The position numbers and the translations under genes are program-made. From the IMG/VR virus record IMGVR_UViG_3300030102_000661, positions 1 through 26,203 of that record: a DNA stretch of 26,203 nucleotides; one strand, given 5' to 3'. The notes under the pieces were generated by a model. That model ran no database searches and was not told the DNA's origin. It saw nothing but the letters and a program-made list of their open reading frames with translations. Origin of the DNA: a virus. Shown here piece by piece: positions 3,695-24,005 of the stretch (its first letter is position 1; every line of letters starts with the position of its first letter).

Positions 3695-3904
3695 CTAATC
3701 TACACGATAAAAATCGTTAGGCGTTACAGCTCCGTCAGTTACTGTCATAATCGCAGCCATATATTTGGCGCTTGGTATCATCCTATCTCTGTGTGTTTGA
3801 GGAAGACAAAAACGCCTGGCAATCGTTGCATGACTAGCACCAATCATTGCAGCTAACTTGGCATAACTCATTTTGTTTTGATCTTTAAATTCTTTTAATG
3901 TCAT
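3695..3904 (-). CDS. Cro-like HTH repressor
   Basis: A 69-residue protein with a Cro/CI-type helix-turn-helix: MTLKEFKDQNKMSYAKLAAM followed by IGASHATIARRF as turn and recognition helix, ending in the GAVTPNDFY stretch found in many Cro-like proteins. It is the first gene of the leftward early operon and is divergent from the CI-like gene. Start 3904 is preferred over 3928 because the protein then begins as Cro relatives do, and because the predicted promoter would start transcription at this ATG. The extra eight residues from 3928 have no ribosome binding site. Its expected role is to shut down the repressor promoter and choose lytic growth. Confidence 0.75.
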   Translation of the reverse strand: MTLKEFKDQNKMSYAKLAAMIGASHATIARRFCLPQTHRDRMIPSAKYMAAIMTVTDGAVTPNDFYRVD

Positions 3905-3938
3905 GCCTGGATTATATAGATTTGACATATACGGTCAA
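3905..3938 (-). promoter_or_regulatory. Predicted promoter of the cro-like operon
   Basis: On the minus strand TTGACC (3938-3933) and TATAAT (3916-3911) are separated by 16 bp, a near-consensus sigma70 promoter. Six bases follow before ATG at 3904, so the predicted +1 is the A of the start codon. The -35 box overlaps an operator-like site (3934-3945). Confidence 0.65.
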
Positions 3939-3945
3939 TACTGTT
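3934..3945. promoter_or_regulatory. Operator-like site O1
   Basis: GTCAATACTGTT matches the site at 4648-4659 (GTCAAAACTGTT) at 11 of 12 positions. Its reverse complement, AACAGTATTGAC, shares AACAGT and TGAC with the sites at 3966 and 8361. It overlaps the -35 box of the cro-like promoter, so binding should block it. Confidence 0.6.
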
Positions 3946-3965
3946 ATTTATTTTTTTATAGATGT

Positions 3966-3980
3966 AACAGTAACTGACAT
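3966..3980. promoter_or_regulatory. Operator-like site O2
   Basis: AACAGTAACTGACAT lies 15 bp upstream of the CI-like start codon. It differs at one position from AACAGTAAATGACAT in the integrase promoter (8361-8375). The core CAGT-A-ACTG is palindromic. It probably serves autoregulation of the repressor. Confidence 0.6.
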
Positions 3981-3994
3981 GGTGATATTATAAA

Positions 3995-4630
3995 ATGAAT
4001 GATAATATATTTAACATGATAAAGAATAATCAAAATAATTTAAAGCATCTCATAAGATTAGCTGGTTTAACACACGCTGAAGTAGCTGAAAAAAAAGGTA
4101 TAGCGCCTGAAAGTTTATCCAGGCATATATCAGGTAAATCGCAGTTTAGCATACAAGACGCAAGAGATTATGCAGAAATTCTTGATATAGATCCAAGTCA
4201 ATTACTTTTCCCAAATCCTAAAATTAGAGTTTATGGAGAAATAGTAGACGCTGATGTTGTTAACATGAAAGATAGCTCAGACCCTGAAGAATGGGTATCT
4301 ACACCATTTAGATATCCACCTTGGGTAGGTATTTTTGTAGATGTAAGAAAAAATTACAATACATTTTTGGATGGAGCACTTGAAACAGTTGATACTAGAC
4401 CAATTCAAAAACAAGAAGTTCCGCAATCTGCTTATGGTAAATGGTGCGTTGTAAAAACAGCTGATAAAAAAATTTTACAAAGAACAATTTATCCAACTCA
4501 TGATGGAAAGTTTACACTAGCTTCAGTAGGCGGCAGAGAAGTTTTACATGACCAAACATTATTGTTTGCTTGCCCAGTTTTATCTCGTGTCGAAAGACCT
4601 GAATTATTAGGTTTCAAAATTATTAGTTGA
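3995..4630 (+). CDS. CI-like phage repressor
   Basis: A 211-residue protein with an N-terminal XRE-type HTH at about residues 16-65 (LIRLAGLTHAEVAEKKGIAP, then SLSRHISGKSQFSIQD). From about residue 75 onward comes a beta-rich domain shaped like the LexA/CI peptidase-S24 fold (KIRVYGEIVDADVV..., GKWCVVKTADKKILQRTIYP, LLFACPVLSRVER). The usual catalytic Ser-Met motif is not seen. The matching region reads VGIFVDVRKNYNTFLDGALE, so self-cleavage is doubtful. The divergent cro-like gene, operator-like repeats and an adjacent recombination operon place it as the lysogeny repressor. Only a weak GGTG precedes the start. Confidence 0.75.
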   Translation: MNDNIFNMIKNNQNNLKHLIRLAGLTHAEVAEKKGIAPESLSRHISGKSQFSIQDARDYAEILDIDPSQLLFPNPKIRVYGEIVDADVVNMKDSSDPEEWVSTPFRYPPWVGIFVDVRKNYNTFLDGALETVDTRPIQKQEVPQSAYGKWCVVKTADKKILQRTIYPTHDGKFTLASVGGREVLHDQTLLFACPVLSRVERPELLGFKIIS

Positions 4631-4633
4631 CAC

Positions 4634-4665
4634 TTTTAACAGCTTCTGTCAAAACTGTTTATACC
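4634..4665 (+). promoter_or_regulatory. Promoter and operator of the recombination operon
   Basis: Immediately after the repressor stop lies a palindrome (4634-4654) built as TTTT-a-ACAG-ctt-CTGT-c-AAAA, overlapping GTCAAAACTGTT (4648-4659). A plausible sigma70 promoter, TTAACA (4636-4641), 18 bp, TATACC (4660-4665), is covered by these sites. The next start codon is at 4697. The dyad could also act as a weak hairpin at the end of the repressor mRNA. Confidence 0.5.
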
Positions 4666-4696
4666 CAATAAATAGTTAACAGAGGTTGTTTAGAAT

Positions 4697-5623
4697 ATGG
4701 AGTTCCCTTCACTGCCCAACTGGGCAACACAAAAAAACTACTTATGGCATTCTAATCCTGAAAGTAGACCAGTATGCAGAACATACTTTGATAAATGTAT
4801 TATAAGACCAAAACTCGATATAGCCTGGTCTATAGTCAAAGGCGAAAAGGACGGTGATAAAGATCACGCCTTAGAACAAATCAAAAAATATACTAATGAT
4901 GCAGCTAAAATGACAGCTGGTCGAGTTGTACAAACTTTAATTGACGATTACCGAATCAATAATAAAGCAGATACTATTGAAGATTGTATTGATGCTGGTA
5001 AAGAAATGTTTGCCGAATACAAACCTAAGACCTGGGATGATGGCAAGGATGAAGCACAACTAGAGATATGTCGTGATACTTTTGGTGATGTATTTAAGAA
5101 CGCATTACAAGGTTTAGATGAAGCGCAAAATAAAATGCGTATCAATAAACTAGAAGGTGAACGTAATTATATGTTTGCTGTTCCAGGTCTAGCATTAGAG
5201 TATAACGGCAAGCCTGATTTTAACGGACAAATAGAACTTAAAACCACCTGGGCAAGTGTAGCTAATACTAAATCAGGTAAAAGAGCAGCTAGTCTTCCAA
5301 CACAACCCAGTTGGTCGCATTTATGTCAGGTTGCTGGATACTGGGCATTTAAGCATGAACCACAATCAATTGTATATGCCAATGAGACTAGCTTCAGAGT
5401 ATTTACTCAAGAGAACTGCGAAAAACTAGCGCCTGAAGCTCTTAAAAATATTTGGAACCATATTGTAGCTAAATGTCGTATCCGTGAAAACCAGCTTAAA
5501 TCTGCTGAAACAGTTAATGATCTAATACAGCTGGTCGAACCTGACTTTAGCCATATGTTCGCCTGGGATATTCATCCTGACGTTTTATCAGAAGCAAAAC
5601 TTTTATGGGGATTTGTACAATGA
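4697..5623 (+). CDS. PD-(D/E)XK exonuclease (RecB/Cas4/YqaJ-like)
   Basis: A 308-residue nuclease. The catalytic motifs are GKPDFNG with Asp174, QIELKTTW with Glu180 and Lys182, and the RecB-family Gln-x3-Tyr motif in LCQVAGYW (Gln211, Tyr215). The N-terminal half is helical, with an SxxPVCRTYFDKCII stretch containing two cysteines. No full 4Fe-4S cysteine set is evident. With the annealing protein encoded three genes downstream it should form a Red-like two-component recombination system, the exonuclease making single strands for the annealing protein. It is the first gene of the rightward operon. Confidence 0.8.
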   Translation: MEFPSLPNWATQKNYLWHSNPESRPVCRTYFDKCIIRPKLDIAWSIVKGEKDGDKDHALEQIKKYTNDAAKMTAGRVVQTLIDDYRINNKADTIEDCIDAGKEMFAEYKPKTWDDGKDEAQLEICRDTFGDVFKNALQGLDEAQNKMRINKLEGERNYMFAVPGLALEYNGKPDFNGQIELKTTWASVANTKSGKRAASLPTQPSWSHLCQVAGYWAFKHEPQSIVYANETSFRVFTQENCEKLAPEALKNIWNHIVAKCRIRENQLKSAETVNDLIQLVEPDFSHMFAWDIHPDVLSEAKLLWGFVQ

Positions 5624-5757
5624 ATAAGTATCTAAAAATGCATATTGCAAAAGCAACACCTAAAAATAATTCATATACGTTTTGGTATACCCTGATACAT
5701 TTTTTAGGCTTTTGTAGCTTCACCGTGTTTATGATTTTTTTACTGGTGATACTATGA
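5620..5757 (+). CDS. Small single-pass membrane protein
   Basis: A 45-residue frame linked by ATGA overlaps on both sides (5620-5623 with the nuclease, 5754-5757 with the next gene). It starts MNKYLKMHIAKATPKNNSYT with positive charges, followed by one hydrophobic segment at about residues 21-45 (FWYTLIHFLGFCSFTVFMIF and the rest). The perfect stop/start overlaps support it as a real gene. No family is recognised. A membrane-acting early peptide, such as an exclusion or holin-like product, is possible but unproven. Confidence 0.6.
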   Translation: MNKYLKMHIAKATPKNNSYTFWYTLIHFLGFCSFTVFMIFLLVIL

Positions 5758-6092
5758 TTCAAAGAAATATGTTTGATAAATTAGAGGTTCCTAGAAACGT
5801 CCGTGAAGCACGCTTTCTAGAGTTTCATAAACAATACCCAATAGTTTATAGGCTATGGGATAGGTTCACCAGGGAATGCATTGATAAAGGTATGAACAGA
5901 GTAGGTTCAGCTCTAATCATGGAACGCATACGCTGGGAAACAAACGTAGTTATACAAGACAACACCGAAAATAATAAAAAATTAAAAATAAATGATCATC
6001 ACAAAGCATATTATTCACGGCTTTGGATGAAGAACAATCCACAATACAAAGGCGTATTTGAGACAAGAGGAGTAGAAGGAAGTAATGATTGA
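5754..6092 (+). CDS. Conserved phage protein of unknown function
   Basis: A 112-residue protein with a pattern I have seen in many prophages: 'FLEFHKQYPIVYRLWDRFTR', then a small helix, 'RVGSALIMERIRWET', and 'KINDHHKAYYSRLWMKNNPQ' followed by GVFETR. It is compact and rich in aromatic and basic residues, and its relatives often lie beside recombination genes, as here. The function is unknown. It overlaps the upstream membrane protein gene by 4 bp and the annealing protein gene by 8 bp. Confidence 0.65.
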   Translation: MIQRNMFDKLEVPRNVREARFLEFHKQYPIVYRLWDRFTRECIDKGMNRVGSALIMERIRWETNVVIQDNTENNKKLKINDHHKAYYSRLWMKNNPQYKGVFETRGVEGSND

Positions 6093-6714
6093 AGCGGACG
6101 TATTACATAATATCATTGAAGATATAAAAAAAGCACCAGCTGTAGAAATTCATAAAAAGAAATACACAACTGTAGCTACAAGATTAGAAATATTCAGAAA
6201 ACATACTGGTTTTAAATACGGTATTAACACTGACATTGTCACATACGGATCACAACCAGGTGAAAAGATTGTGATCAAAGCAACCATATCTACTGACCAG
6301 GGATTTGTTTTAGCTAGTGGTACAGCTGAAGAGATCATTGGCAGCGGAAATATAAACAAAACATCAGCGTTAGAAAACTGTGAGAGCAGCGCCTGGGGGC
6401 GTGCTTTGGGCAGCCTTGGCATACATGGCGGTGAGTTTCCTAGTTACGATGAAATGGAAATAGCAAAAGGGAAGGAAGATAAATTGGAAGACAATCCTAA
6501 ACCTGAAGGTGATCCTGAAGATAAGTTAGCTGCTGCTGAAAAATATGTAGAACAGCAGATAAAAGCAATTCAAACAATGAACCAAAATGCGCTTACTGTT
6601 TGGACACAACACGAATCAGATAACTTAAAATCGTTAGCTGATTTAAATAAAAATCTACATACAAAATTATTTAACGCTTACAAGGAAAGGAAACAAAATG
6701 CCGTCAGCGCCTAA
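6085..6714 (+). CDS. Single-strand annealing protein (ERF/Sak-type)
   Basis: A 209-residue protein. Residues 1-115 form the conserved core: VEIHKKKYTTVATRLEIFRK, a beta-rich middle (KIVIKATISTDQGFVLASGTAEEI) and the diagnostic INKTSALENCESSAWGRALG segment (90-110), found in phage ssDNA annealing proteins of the ERF/Rad52-like group. The rest (about 125-209) is charged and helical, probably the tail that contacts ssDNA-binding or nuclease partners. AAGGAAG precedes the start. It is expected to anneal single strands produced by the nuclease encoded at 4697. The exact subfamily cannot be assigned by eye. Confidence 0.75.
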   Translation: MIEADVLHNIIEDIKKAPAVEIHKKKYTTVATRLEIFRKHTGFKYGINTDIVTYGSQPGEKIVIKATISTDQGFVLASGTAEEIIGSGNINKTSALENCESSAWGRALGSLGIHGGEFPSYDEMEIAKGKEDKLEDNPKPEGDPEDKLAAAEKYVEQQIKAIQTMNQNALTVWTQHESDNLKSLADLNKNLHTKLFNAYKERKQNAVSA

Positions 6715-6994
6715 TATGAAAAATAGTAAATTAAGATTAAATGGATCTATAAATGCAACAGATCAAATATCGGTAGGATTTTGGTTTAACATTGATGACC
6801 AAGATTTAGTTGACCAGCTAGAGAAGTACTACGCTATAGCTAATAAATCACCGTCAATACAACTGCAAAGAAAAGAGATAGATACATATACAACAATGGG
6901 TAGTGCTAACCTATTCTTACCTGATGAGCGCAAGACTATGTTGCAAAGCAGCTCAACACCAATAGGAGATGATGATGGTTTCCCTGGAAGGTAG
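6698..6994 (+). CDS. Hypothetical early protein
   Basis: A 98-residue protein overlapping the annealing protein gene by 17 bp, with a good AAGGAAAGGA ribosome binding site inside that gene. Beta-like segments (KLRLNGSINATDQISVGFWF) and a helix (DQDLVDQLEKYYAIAN) are seen, ending in an acidic GDDDGFPGR tail. The sequence is too short and unfamiliar to assign. A partner of the annealing protein, such as a small ssDNA-binding protein with an acidic tip, is possible: the acidic C-terminus would fit but the core is not recognisably OB-fold. Confidence 0.6.
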   Translation: MPSAPNMKNSKLRLNGSINATDQISVGFWFNIDDQDLVDQLEKYYAIANKSPSIQLQRKEIDTYTTMGSANLFLPDERKTMLQSSSTPIGDDDGFPGR

Positions 6995-7178
6995 ATCTCT
7001 TTTTAGACCAAAAGAAGTAGCCATAAGATTGTTTGGTGATTTTGGCGATGTAAATCGTAAAAGAATTTATCGCTGGATACGAACTGGTAAAATAAAATCT
7101 ATCAAAGATTCAAGAGTATACTTTATACCTAAAAATGAAATACTTAGAATTGAATCTGAAATGGAAATGGCGGATTAG
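6975..7178 (+). CDS. xis: Excisionase-like HTH protein
   Basis: A 67-residue protein with a MerR/Xis-type winged HTH: LFRPKEVAIRLFGDFGDVNR, then KRIYRWIRTGKIKSIKDSRV and a C-terminal wing and helix (YFIPKNEILRIESEME). Three consecutive ATG codons exist. The third (6975) is chosen because AGGAG at 6964-6968 is six bases upstream, whereas it touches the first. The gene points at the integrase gene and their stop codons overlap. An excisionase or recombination directionality role is inferred from fold and position. Confidence 0.65.
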   Translation: MVSLEGRSLFRPKEVAIRLFGDFGDVNRKRIYRWIRTGKIKSIKDSRVYFIPKNEILRIESEMEMAD

Positions 7179-7188
7179 TTTCCGCCAT
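7167..7188. terminator. Hairpin at the xis/int convergence
   Basis: A perfect 8-bp inverted repeat, ATGGCGGA (7167-7174) and TCCGCCAT (7181-7188), encloses a 6-base loop TTAGTT. The loop holds the stop codons of both convergent genes. No T-run follows on either strand, so it is a bidirectional hairpin that may stop polymerases weakly or protect mRNA ends. Confidence 0.55.
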
Positions 7189-8323
7189 ACATCGCTGAAG
7201 CAGCTGCTTGTCTTGCCTTCGCTTGTTTTCTTTCATTCTTAACAAAGTGACCATACTGCTTGTAAGTAAAGTTAGAGTTAGAATGCCCCATAAGAGCAGC
7301 TACTTCTGCCCAATCTTCACCCAAGCTAGATAACTGCACTGATGCATAAAAGTGTCTCATATCACCCCATAAGATAGGCTTTACACCAGCTCTTTCACAA
7401 ACTCTTTTAATTAGTTTGATCAATATCTTTTGTACTTTTGGTGTACCGTTAGAGCTTGCAAAAACAATGTCACCAGGTGCGCTAAACTTTGATGCAATTT
7501 TTAGCTCTTTAAGTCTCTTCATAGTAGCTGCATCAATAGGTATTTCTCTTCTACCTCTTTTAGTCTTAGTATCACCAATAACCATTGTGCCATGCTTAAC
7601 TGCACCCTCGATACGAATTGTATCATTATTAAAATCAATGTTGCCCCACTTCAATGCACGCAGTTCACCTTGTCTCATGCCGCTTGCAAGAGCTGTAAGA
7701 ACCATACACTGATCATAAAGAGTTTCAGCTGGTAATCCGTCACTAACAATCTTTTGAATTGTCTCAGGCTGTATTCTTGGCGCCCTATCTCCAAGCTCTG
7801 ATGACATACCTAATGATACTTTATCAAGAGGGTTTATTGTAATCCAACCTTTAAGATCACAATAATTTAAAAACATTTTTAATACTTTAATTCTTTTCTC
7901 AGCTGTAGCTTTTGATTTACCTTCGTCAGTAATACCTTTTACAAAAGCTGTAACTAATTCAGATTTGTTTTCTCTTTTAATAATATCAAAACTTTGATCT
8001 AAAAATTTCTTACCATCAATCTTTATATCCAAACAATAACTTAATGATTTTTTAATCTCTTTGAAAAATGAAACAGACAATTCTTTATTGTCTATTCTAG
8101 TTGTTTGGTAATGATAAAATTTATCTACTGCCTGGGATACTTTTACTACGTCAACTTTTTCTGCAATAGCACCAGTAATAAATTTAGCTTTGAGTAATTC
8201 AGCTTCTTTCAGAGCAGCTGCTTTTGATGGATAGTTACCGTACCTATTGTTAAAACCAATACGCCTTGCATCAATAACCCATTGCTTTCTAGCTTCCCAA
8301 TATCTTACTTTAAGATCCTTCAT
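7175..8323 (-). CDS. int: Tyrosine-recombinase integrase
   Basis: A 382-residue phage integrase. An N-terminal arm-binding region (1-55) is followed by a core-binding SAM-like domain (about 60-165) and the catalytic domain. Catalytic residues visible are Arg217 in SGMRQGELRAL, Lys in the GDTKTKRGRREIPI turn (253 or 255), Arg323 in LWGDMRHFYAS, His347 in LMGHSNSNFT and nucleophile Tyr357 in KQYGHF. The first His of the usual H-x-x-R box is replaced by Gly320. AAGGAG (8335-8330) precedes the start. The adjacent attP core implies integration into a tRNA-Asp gene. The promoter carries an operator-like site. Confidence 0.93.
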   Translation of the reverse strand: MKDLKVRYWEARKQWVIDARRIGFNNRYGNYPSKAAALKEAELLKAKFITGAIAEKVDVVKVSQAVDKFYHYQTTRIDNKELSVSFFKEIKKSLSYCLDIKIDGKKFLDQSFDIIKRENKSELVTAFVKGITDEGKSKATAEKRIKVLKMFLNYCDLKGWITINPLDKVSLGMSSELGDRAPRIQPETIQKIVSDGLPAETLYDQCMVLTALASGMRQGELRALKWGNIDFNNDTIRIEGAVKHGTMVIGDTKTKRGRREIPIDAATMKRLKELKIASKFSAPGDIVFASSNGTPKVQKILIKLIKRVCERAGVKPILWGDMRHFYASVQLSSLGEDWAEVAALMGHSNSNFTYKQYGHFVKNERKQAKARQAAASAMYGGN

Positions 8324-8355
8324 TTACCGCTCCTTTGTTAACCGCTTATGTAATA

Positions 8356-8383
8356 AATATAACAGTAAATGACATATTTTCAA
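8356..8383 (-). promoter_or_regulatory. Predicted integrase promoter
   Basis: On the minus strand TTGAAA (8383-8378), 16 bp, TATATT (8361-8356). The 16-bp spacer contains an operator-like sequence, so the promoter should be repressed by the CI-like or Cro-like protein. The int start codon is 33 bp downstream of the -10 box. Confidence 0.6.
8361..8375. promoter_or_regulatory. Operator-like site O3 in the int promoter
   Basis: AACAGTAAATGACAT is identical to the repressor-promoter site at 3966-3980 except for one base. It lies almost exactly between the -35 and -10 boxes of the predicted integrase promoter. Confidence 0.6.
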
Positions 8384-8401: not shown

Positions 8402-8420
8402 TGTGTACAAAATGTGTACA
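8402..8420. repeat. TGTGTACA double repeat, copy 2
   Basis: TGTGTACAAAATGTGTACA, 19 bp, identical to 8622-8640. The two octamers start 11 bp apart. It lies 69 bp to the left of the attachment core. It is a candidate integrase arm site or accessory-protein site. Confidence 0.75.
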
Positions 8421-8489
8421 AGCTAAATTTATAATAGTTTTGGAATAGGTCTTGTGGGGGATAAGCCATTGATATTACTAGGAATATAA

Positions 8490-8534
8490 TGGCGAGAGTG
8501 ACGAGACTCGAACTCGCGACCTCCGGCGTGACAG
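8490..8534 (-). other. attP core: 3' half of tRNA-Asp(GTC)
   Basis: The minus strand reads as a tRNA from anticodon loop to CCA: loop CTGTCAC with anticodon GTC, stem GCCGG, variable AGGTC, T-arm GCGAG-TTCGAGT-CTCGT, acceptor CACTCTC, discriminator G, CCA (45 bases). The 5' half is absent: the base before the loop is A instead of the C needed for pairing. It therefore cannot be a full tRNA gene, but after recombination it would restore the 3' half of the host gene. Phage tRNA-integrated att cores commonly have this form. Confidence 0.85.
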
Positions 8535-8621
8535 TTCGTAAAAAACCTATGCGTGAGGTGTAAAGAGGTAGGTATTTAGGGAAATACGGCTACAGAGTTC
8601 CCACCGATTCCCTCGAAAAAG

Positions 8622-8640
8622 TGTGTACAAAATGTGTACA
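8622..8640. repeat. TGTGTACA double repeat, copy 3
   Basis: Identical to 8402-8420 and 87 bp to the right of the core, directly after the last late gene (stop at 8642). Because TGTACA is self-complementary, the minus-strand RNA can also fold here and is followed by CACTTTTT, so a weak terminator role is possible besides DNA binding. Confidence 0.7.
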
Positions 8641-21214: not shown

Positions 21215-24005
21215 CGTATGATACTCCACCGTTGATCCATGTTGCAGATGGGTTTTTATAAACCACGGTCTGATACTGTACTACATCTGCAAAACTTATT
21301 CCATCTATTTTTCCTATTTCTTCTATAACATCTGCAAATAAGTCTTCTTTTTCTTCAAATATTTCTTTTGCCCTTGATGGATCAAATGCTTCATCAAACT
21401 CAGGTATGTACTGAAATCTAATACCAGTCAATCCAGCTGTTGGTTCATTACTTAAAGACATAATGTCAGGTCTATCTTTATACCTTGCGTCAGTTATAAA
21501 TGTAAAACCATCTATTCCTCTAGCTCTAAGTGTGTTGGTTATTATCTGCGCAAAGTCTACATTTTGTCTGTTTTGAAAATATATTTCTGCACCAGGTCTA
21601 GCTCCTTCAGTTCCATCAGCAACAACCTTTGATACAAAAACTGCATCCTGGTTGAATTTTTTGCCCATCTCAACAACCTTATCTGTCATAGCCTTGGGAT
21701 TAAAATTTGTTCTTGTAACAACCTCAAAATTCAAAGATCTTTCCAATTCACCCATAAATTCCCCATATGTGTTATTTGCTTGAAAAGCCATAACAGTATC
21801 ATCATTTTTAAGAGGTGCTGTAAGTTCTGCTGACAAATCAGCTTGTTGTATGTTTGTTGGAACATTGTCAGGTCTTTCTCTAGAAATACCTATTGTTGTT
21901 CTTTCAGGTGATCCTTCCAAAGTTTTTAATTCATCTGCTGCTTTTATTTTATCAGCTTCACTTGAAGCAGAGCTATTAATAATTGATCTAAGCTCTTTTA
22001 CTCTTTCAGGATTCGCTGATCCACCATACACACTTTCAAAGTCTAATGATCCGCCTTCACCAGCTTTTGTTGTCCATCCGTTCTTAGTCCACTTTTCTTT
22101 TTCTAAAAACCAAACTACTGCCTGGAGATCATCTGCACCCATATCACCTATGTTTGGATTAAATGCTTTTATGCCACCCTCCGTATTCAATATGTTTGCA
22201 GCATCAGAAAATACTTCTTGTCCAAAACCAAATTCAGATCCTATTTGTGGATTTTCAAAAGTACTTTTAGTTAAATGTTTACCAGCCACAGCTTTTTCTG
22301 CTGGTGGTGGTATTCTTGGTAATCCAGCAGCATCTCTAAGATATCTAGCCGCCCATACATCTATTGTAGCTTCATTACCAAAACCAATAAGATTACCAGT
22401 AAAGTTAATTGTTTTAGGAGCTTTACCAGGTTTTATTTGCCTGAACATATCAAGTAAAGCTGTAGTAGCTGCTGGACTATTATTTCCAAATAATTTACCA
22501 GCTGCATTTCTTATAAGATCAAAATCAACATTTTCATCTTTTGCCATTGCAGTAAGTCTTGTTGAACTTAAATTACCACCTTCATCGGCAATCTTTTTAT
22601 ACATTTCAATTTGTTTATCAAAGTCACCACGGACAAAAGATCTAAGTACACCAACAGCATTTTCATAGTTTTGTTGTACGTTAGTCATCGCTGACGTTGC
22701 ACCAATAATATCAGCAAATACATCAGATAAACCACCAAACTCTCTTCTTAGTCTAGATCTCATTGATCTATACCAATTAGCCTGGTTAATAATATCTATT
22801 GCAGCTTGATCACCACCCTTTGCTCTTTCAAGAACAGCGTTTACATCAGTAACCATTTTGTTTACAAGATTAGATTTATGAGTTGAAACAGCTGCTGTTT
22901 TTTTATCACCTTTTAATTTATCAAAATTTTTGACATTAGGAATATGGAAAGCATATGCTGGTTGCTGCCACCTAATATCTATTGAACCTTTTTTATCGAC
23001 TTTAAATGATGGATTTTTACTGTCAGCTGCAATGTTTATTGGTAGCCAACCTTCACTTTCAGGGTACTCATTTTTAACCCTTAGAGCTTCATCTCTAATA
23101 GTATTATATTCTTTTGTTGTCTTAGTATCTGTTTTTAACTTTGTTGTTTCTGCTCTAGACAATCTGTTAATTATATTACTAATAACACCAGCTTCAGCTT
23201 CACTTGTTGCAGCCAAACCAGCTGCTACAGTGCCGCCTTGTAAAACTCTTTTCCAAGGTATTTTTCTACCAATTCTAAATGCAGCTTCTAATAAACCACC
23301 TATGCCCATCCCCTCTAAAGATGACTTTGCAAGTTTTACAGCTTCAGGATCATCTTCATATTTTGTAAACAAACCGACTAGCATTTCTCGTAATGCTTCT
23401 TGATCTTGTTGTTCAACACCTTCAGGGTTTGACAATAACTGACCTACTAGCGTTTGATCGTTTGCATTGAAAGCAGTAGCATCAGCTATGCCGCCCCACA
23501 TTAATGACCTAGTAAAAGCATTTGCATTAGTAATTAATTTAACAAAAGAAGCTGCTGGTATTGCTGTTGTACCAAATTGAGATATAGCTTCTGTCAATGC
23601 ACCAGTAATTTGATTGTCATATGGTTTGGAAAGATACTCATTAAATTTTACATTCAATGATTTAGGAATAAGTTCTTCTCCAAAATCTGTTATTGCCTTA
23701 ATACCGCTTTGTAAAAAATCGCTTCCCATAACTGGATTTTGAATATCAAAGCCAATTTTATTAAGACCAGCTGTTACAATATCAACTGGCGCACCAACAA
23801 TTGTTGCCAGGTTCATAGGTAGTTCTGTCATACCTTTTACCGCACCTTTTACAGTAGCTCGACCCATTGTACCTGGTATTGTTTCTTTATCATCAACAAC
23901 TGGCTCTACTTTTTCTTTAGGCTTGTTAACAACACCGATATTAAAAAAAGCAGCTGTGTCTGCTGCTTCATAATCATTTTCTATTTGGTCTAAATAACTT
24001 GTCAT
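21186..24005 (-). CDS. Large ejection-type protein with an enzyme-like domain
   Basis: A 939-residue protein. Its N-terminus (MTSYLDQIENDYEAADTAAF) and hydrophobic stretches around 55-85 and 230-270 resemble internal virion proteins. The centre (about 405-655) looks like a compact globular domain: WYRSMRSRLRREFGGLSDVF, NFTGNL (534-539), TIDVWAARYLRDAAG (547-561), GSEFGFGQEVF (589-599) and LQAVVWFLEKEKW (627-639). Similar 'TIDVW.AR' and 'LQA..W' pieces occur in phage proteins of the DUF7178 or polyvalent-protein type, function unknown. Overlap with its upstream gene is ATGA. It is probably ejected with DNA. Confidence 0.6.
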   Translation of the reverse strand: MTSYLDQIENDYEAADTAAFFNIGVVNKPKEKVEPVVDDKETIPGTMGRATVKGAVKGMTELPMNLATIVGAPVDIVTAGLNKIGFDIQNPVMGSDFLQSGIKAITDFGEELIPKSLNVKFNEYLSKPYDNQITGALTEAISQFGTTAIPAASFVKLITNANAFTRSLMWGGIADATAFNANDQTLVGQLLSNPEGVEQQDQEALREMLVGLFTKYEDDPEAVKLAKSSLEGMGIGGLLEAAFRIGRKIPWKRVLQGGTVAAGLAATSEAEAGVISNIINRLSRAETTKLKTDTKTTKEYNTIRDEALRVKNEYPESEGWLPINIAADSKNPSFKVDKKGSIDIRWQQPAYAFHIPNVKNFDKLKGDKKTAAVSTHKSNLVNKMVTDVNAVLERAKGGDQAAIDIINQANWYRSMRSRLRREFGGLSDVFADIIGATSAMTNVQQNYENAVGVLRSFVRGDFDKQIEMYKKIADEGGNLSSTRLTAMAKDENVDFDLIRNAAGKLFGNNSPAATTALLDMFRQIKPGKAPKTINFTGNLIGFGNEATIDVWAARYLRDAAGLPRIPPPAEKAVAGKHLTKSTFENPQIGSEFGFGQEVFSDAANILNTEGGIKAFNPNIGDMGADDLQAVVWFLEKEKWTKNGWTTKAGEGGSLDFESVYGGSANPERVKELRSIINSSASSEADKIKAADELKTLEGSPERTTIGISRERPDNVPTNIQQADLSAELTAPLKNDDTVMAFQANNTYGEFMGELERSLNFEVVTRTNFNPKAMTDKVVEMGKKFNQDAVFVSKVVADGTEGARPGAEIYFQNRQNVDFAQIITNTLRARGIDGFTFITDARYKDRPDIMSLSNEPTAGLTGIRFQYIPEFDEAFDPSRAKEIFEEKEDLFADVIEEIGKIDGISFADVVQYQTVVYKNPSATWINGGVSYDEYFGTATR

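Follow-up and report, generated by a model that had tools for sequence, protein, structure and literature searches.

How might a temperate phage place its lysogeny repressor, its recombination genes and its integrase under common control? The question is raised by a 26,203-base (26.2-kb) viral record, hereafter the window, which probably derives from an uncultured temperate phage of marine origin. An initial annotation had recognized four sites of the form AACAGT-N2-3-TGAC between or beside promoter boxes, and had predicted that one lysogeny repressor acts through them on the cro-like operon, its own gene, the recombination operon and int. Our analysis points to one repressor regulon, with a probability of roughly 0.8, in which cro, the repressor gene, the recombination operon and int would all be off in the dormant state through four candidate operators, O1 to O4 (Table 1).

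The recognition element and its occurrence in the window

All four AACAGT-N2-3-TGAC sites were found where they had been claimed, at 3934-3945 (-), 3966-3978 (+), 4648-4659 (-) and 8361-8373 (+), and all fall within three promoter regions. A search of the whole record (26,203 bases of viral DNA only) returned exactly these four matches, compared with 0.10 expected in dinucleotide shuffles; four or more were reached in 0 of 100 shuffles, and the reversed control pattern had no match in the 26,203 bases. The resemblances described within the set also held, with one base of 15 differing between 3966-3980 and 8361-8375, and one of 12 between the sites at 3934 and 4648. Comparison with relatives revealed the same candidate operator set at homologous promoters and gave strong support to the idea of one shared regulatory set at the cro/repressor, recombination-operon and int promoters, but its unit changed: AACAGT-N2-3-TGAC was ruled out as the recognition unit, and what the intergenic regions of relatives have in common is a 17-bp inverted repeat, TTGACAG-N3-CTGTCAA. 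The 12- to 13-mers at 3966 and 8361 are the middle of the dyads O2 and O4, and those at 3934 and 4648 consist of one half-site of O1 and O3, respectively, plus flanking sequence. This flank is a partly conserved extra half-site in the first case and the 5' arm of a 10-bp leader hairpin in the second.

Table 1. Features of the regions studied, in window coordinates
Feature	Position	Strand	Basis
Small HTH protein, Cro-like, encoded first in the leftward operon	3695..3928	-	weak HTH_3/HTH_26 matches
cro-side leftward promoter, TTGACC-16-TATAAT	3911..3938	-	promoter scan 11/12
O1, candidate operator dyad, TTGACATATACGGTCAA	3922..3938	.	second-best strong-matrix site, 19.9 bits
Probable repressor promoter, TTGACA-17-TATTTA	3922..3950	+	by eye from window and relatives; scan made no call
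Extra half-site, ATAACAG	3941..3947	-	9-bp direct repeat with O1 half
O2, weaker candidate operator, GTAACAGTAACTGACAT	3964..3980	+	top weak-class matrix match, 20.9 bits
Predicted lysogeny repressor, HTH_3 and CI-like C-terminal domain	3995..4630	+	HTH_3 2.2e-6, above cut-off
Half-site, TTGACAC	4627..4633	+	9 bp upstream of O3, overlaps repressor stop codon
O3, candidate operator dyad, TTAACAGCTTCTGTCAA	4636..4652	.	best strong-matrix site in window, 21.2 bits
Probable recombination-operon promoter, TTAACA-17-TTATAC	4636..4664	+	by eye; scan made no call
Leader hairpin, AACTGTTTAT-ACCCA-ATAAATAGTT	4653..4677	+	10-bp stem folded in window, L007, L009
First recombination-operon gene	4697..5623	+	tblastn 31.7% over 41% of query to putative nuclease of Pelagibacter phage HTVC028P
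Excisionase-like protein (HTH_17), final gene in the O3 operon	6969..7178	+	HTH_17 7e-6, just under cut-off; PHROG 66 excisionase 1e-4
Tyrosine integrase	7175..8323	-	PF00589 1.4e-22; PHROG 1 integrase 2e-45
int promoter, TTGAAA-16-TATATT	8356..8383	-	promoter scan 10/12
O4, candidate operator, ATGTCATTTACTGTTAT (int strand)	8359..8375	-	second weak-class matrix match, 19.7 bits
Intact attP	8402..8640	-	repeat search upstream of int in relatives

A strong-site matrix trained on O1 and O3 of distant relatives only ranked O3 first and O1 second in the window, both above the 99th percentile of shuffle maxima (18.6 bits) and with the next site at 9.5 bits; TTGACA is also the sigma-70 -35 consensus, and this overlap could inflate the scores of O1 and O3. 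The same matrix gave O2 7.4 bits and left O4 below its ten best sites, and because of these low scores O2 and O4 would be weak sites. A weak-site matrix, trained on O2 and O4 of relatives with the window and its closest kin left out, placed O2 first and O4 second (99th percentile of shuffle maxima, 18.9 bits). This is the weaker of the two tests; its training sites were chosen by position beside genes, which makes it less blind than the test of O1 and O3, and they include one O4 from L009, whose int is 91% identical to that of the window. In the reverse direction, a matrix built from the window, L005 and L014 assigned the top two places to the cro/repressor dyad and O3 in L033, L034, L042, L043, L044, L056, L063 and L065, and ranks three and one, with one other site between, in L059; the dyads upstream of int ranked third in L043 and L044. 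Overall, this matrix recovered the cro/repressor and recombination promoters in almost every distant relative, and int promoters in several of them. L062 carries an 18-bp variant of O1 that the 17-bp matrix missed. Further possible operators in the window, at 4676-4692 (9.5 bits), 23429-23445 (8.7 bits) and 3732-3748 (within the cro gene), were rejected, their scores lying inside the shuffle range. Outside the studied regions, two more dyads 22 bp apart were noted in L059 (1216-1254), an extra operator pair absent from the window.

The cro/repressor region and the probable readers of the dyads

The -35 boxes of cro and of the repressor gene, whose promoters diverge, fall within the half-sites of O1, which are 100% identical in 10 dereplicated lineages, compared with 55% for the O1 spacer and 41% for the O1-O2 interval. 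O2 sits 42 bp from O1 in the window, within the 5' leader of the repressor gene, and the spacing between the starts of O1 and O2 is 41-42 bp in 19 of 19 loci, as read from the sequences (the printed offsets reflect a rough regular expression). The extra half-site next to O1 shows 76% pairwise identity, against 41% in the spacer after it, and is partly lost in L014/L015. As for the placement of the sites beside promoter boxes, sigma-70-like promoters were called by the scan over the cro-side and int-side sites, but none over the site at 4648, where the boxes were read by hand.

The repressor gene is divergent from the cro-like gene with shared dyads between them, as in CI-type repressors. Its AlphaFold model (pLDDT 84) matched the C-terminal domain of the 186 CI repressor (Z 9.5-9.6 over 101-105 residues), and the lambda and 186 repressors led its Foldseek list (E 3.5e-8 to 2.5e-6); the VIA list for this protein consisted mostly of HTH-domain matches, and the NCBIfam scan of the repressors gave HTH matches only, all sub-threshold. 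Peptidase S24 had no Pfam match in the repressor at E 0.1, and the catalytic positions look absent, as judged by eye only; because of the missing family match, the repressor may not self-cleave. Across relatives, repressors share as little as about 37% identity with that of the window, with the HTH around GIAPES(L/V)SRH nearly invariant, and the recognition helix is almost invariant in all relatives that share the candidate operator. The CI architecture and this helix argue for the repressor as the predicted reader, but that it is the only one is doubtful, because two repressor-less lineages keep O1 and an O4.

The relatives were reached through neighboring genes. Queried with the repressor protein alone, viral contigs and phage records yielded nothing, nor did GTDB genomes when searched with repressor alignments, so neither a host nor a prophage is known. 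The gene at 4697-5623 as query led to 11 loci and the integrase to 12, and aligned repressors from these nuclease and integrase loci led to further, more distant loci, some of them GC-richer. Among the relatives, L010-L012 and L024/L025 have cro, the nuclease gene and, where covered, int, and are without a repressor like that of the window. In these, cro directly adjoins the nuclease gene across a short spacer that keeps one dyad. O1 is kept in L010 (TTGACAGTTACGGTCAA, 25.4 bits) and L024 (TTGACTTTTTCTGTCAA, 16.1 bits), and O4 is clear in L024/L025 (GTGACAGAAACTGTTAT) and weak in L010/L026 (GTGACAGTAAGTGTTAC in L026). A Cro-like gene is present in every relative covering the region, repressor-less ones included.

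The retention of O1 and an O4 beside cro in these lineages suggests that Cro shares the operator. It could also be read as a sign that the dyads are read mainly or solely by the Cro-like protein, with the larger repressor acting elsewhere or via Cro; we consider this unlikely. L010-L012 have neither O2 nor the extra half-site, an absence that would follow if both worked for the repressor, and operators shared by repressor and Cro are the usual lambda-type arrangement, which makes Cro an addition to the repressor more than an alternative to it. By analogy with D29 and L5, the repressor-less lineages might instead still be sensitive to the repressor of a relative, and these records may also be fragments or carry unrelated repressors. 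The repressor-less lineages represent a natural control. In the loci of HTVC028P, C72C1 and HTVC106P, which have a distant nuclease gene and are without this repressor, no strong dyad was found (best 5.8-12.5 bits).

The recombination operon, the int promoter and attP

O3 overlies the -35 of the recombination-operon promoter, its left half being the probable -35, and a strong dyad precedes the homologous nuclease gene in the repressor-bearing relatives that cover the region. The half-site upstream of O3 (TTGACA, ATGACA or TTAACA plus 2 nt) recurs at equal offset in L007, L009, L033, L042-L044, L056, L063 and L065, and is absent in L005/L014. Downstream of O3, the stem of the leader hairpin shows paired changes between L007 and L009, and the AACAGT half at 4648-4659, which is altered in close relatives, appears better explained as an arm of this hairpin. 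Hairpins of unrelated sequence stand directly before the first recombination gene in most relatives (window 4653-4677, L005, L014, L042-L044, L056, L063, L065); in several of them the stem takes in the Shine-Dalgarno region, which suggests translational control.

On the integrase side, O4 occupies the spacer between the -35 and -10 boxes, behind the -35, at about the same place in 11 of 11 int promoters compared, and the TTG of the -35 has an equal position in all 11. This placement bears on the view that the sites are mere sigma-70 promoter elements, TTGACA -35 boxes recurring as promoters recur. Both O1 half-sites and the left one of O3 do fall on -35 boxes, but the int-promoter dyad stands between the boxes, the full dyad is conserved and not the hexamers alone, and O2 follows the inferred repressor promoter at a constant interval, which leaves this view very improbable. 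No better placed is the reading of AACAGT-N-TGAC by a host regulator or, as with 186 Apl on its direct repeats, by the phage Xis-like HTH protein. In its favor, the half-sites of this motif repeat directly at 9-10 bp, Apl-type factors recognize direct repeats spaced by one helix turn (PMC7498355), and the phage has an excisionase-like gene; against it, the element conserved best is inverted, the geometry that fits HTH dimers, and the direct-repeat half is what some relatives lose.

In L006, L017, L021, L022, L025, L026 and L033, differing small genes separate int from its promoter/operator; if O4 is a repressor operator, as we favor, their position would bring them under repressor control too. 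Upstream of int, the integrase catalytic domain adjoins a tRNA-type attP with arm sites, in which the core (~8490-8540) resembles a tRNA 3' end, with tRNA identity judged by eye, and is flanked by paired arm-type repeats TGTACACATTTTGTACACA at 8402-8420 and 8622-8640. The arm-type repeats differ from phage to phage, but within one phage the two flanks of the attP core agree (window 8402-8640; L016-L022, L024-L026), and the repeats co-vary with a small number of residues in the N-terminal domain of Int: GFNNRYGN or GLNNRYGN occurs with TGTACACA, GYSHYYGN with TGTAGACA and GYSVNYGN with TGTTAACA, a covariation that, at the sequence level, looks like a switchable arm-binding specificity. The integrase of L020 (on L009's contig, about 8028) has an in-frame TAA at codon 10, which may be an error or mark a pseudogene.

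The proposed switch and its relation to known systems

The computation shows the sites, where they lie, how far apart and how well conserved they are, and a predicted fold for the repressor; from this we infer the identity of the binder, its cooperativity, the order of events and the role of Cro as follows. The 3995-4630 protein would most likely bind as a dimer to the 17-bp dyad. At O1 it would shut the cro operon, and O1 and O2 together, at a fixed distance of 41-42 bp or some four helical turns, would let the repressor limit its own synthesis. At O3, ahead of the recombination operon with its terminal excisionase-like gene, it would cover the -35, and at O4 it would block the int promoter by filling the -35/-10 spacer. 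After infection and before repressor accumulates, int and the xis-bearing operon would both be on; as repressor builds up, both would stop and the prophage would be locked in. Upon induction, all promoters would open together and yield Int and Xis. Cro probably binds at least O1.

In the lambda CI/Cro system (OR, OL), as in the window, the repressor and cro promoters diverge, 17-bp dyads overlie promoter boxes, a further set of operators precedes the recombination operon (like OL/pL), and the repressor, in the window on the model, has a CI-type HTH plus C-terminal domain fold. Unlike lambda, the window phage has only two operators between cro and the repressor gene, 41-42 bp apart, and whereas lambda int is served by pL and the CII-activated pI, int here has its own promoter and its own candidate operator. 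With coliphage 186 CI the window repressor shares the predicted fold of the C-terminal domain, and Pfam gives no S24 peptidase match for it. The int gene of 186 is carried on the lysogenic transcript together with the repressor, whereas that of the window runs convergently to the O3 operon and is served by a separate promoter, which is predicted to be repressed. ImmR of ICEBs1 controls Pxis and, through several operators, is both activator and repressor at its own promoter (PMC9956884); that circuit stimulates int transcription, whereas the candidate operator at the window int should repress it. In D29, compared with L5, the repressor is truncated, but the operator/stoperator sites are kept and the phage stays immune-sensitive (PMC5712189), and the repressor-less L010-L012 and L024/L025 resemble D29 in still keeping O1; the D29/L5 stoperators, however, are asymmetric and number about 24 per genome, compared with a few promoter dyads in the window phage. 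A repressor regulon is a known kind of circuit, here with an uncommonly clear connection to the integrase, and the control of int through an operator in its promoter spacer would be the less usual part. In the open-access literature no clear precedent emerged for direct action of a repressor on an int promoter, which is not proof of novelty.

For the phage group as a whole, we tentatively suggest, at somewhat less than even odds, that the repressor gates int directly via a spacer-locked operator and so confines integration to the brief period before repressor accumulates; the repressor-less lineages keep operators and so may be shut by the repressor of a resident relative or run by Cro alone. 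Collectively, these results give an operator code and regulon, both open to test, for a group of uncultured temperate phages with relatives among the marine pelagiphages, in which lysogeny control has been little studied. Since recognition helix and operator are conserved over repressors only about 40% identical, superinfection immunity groups would become predictable from sequence.
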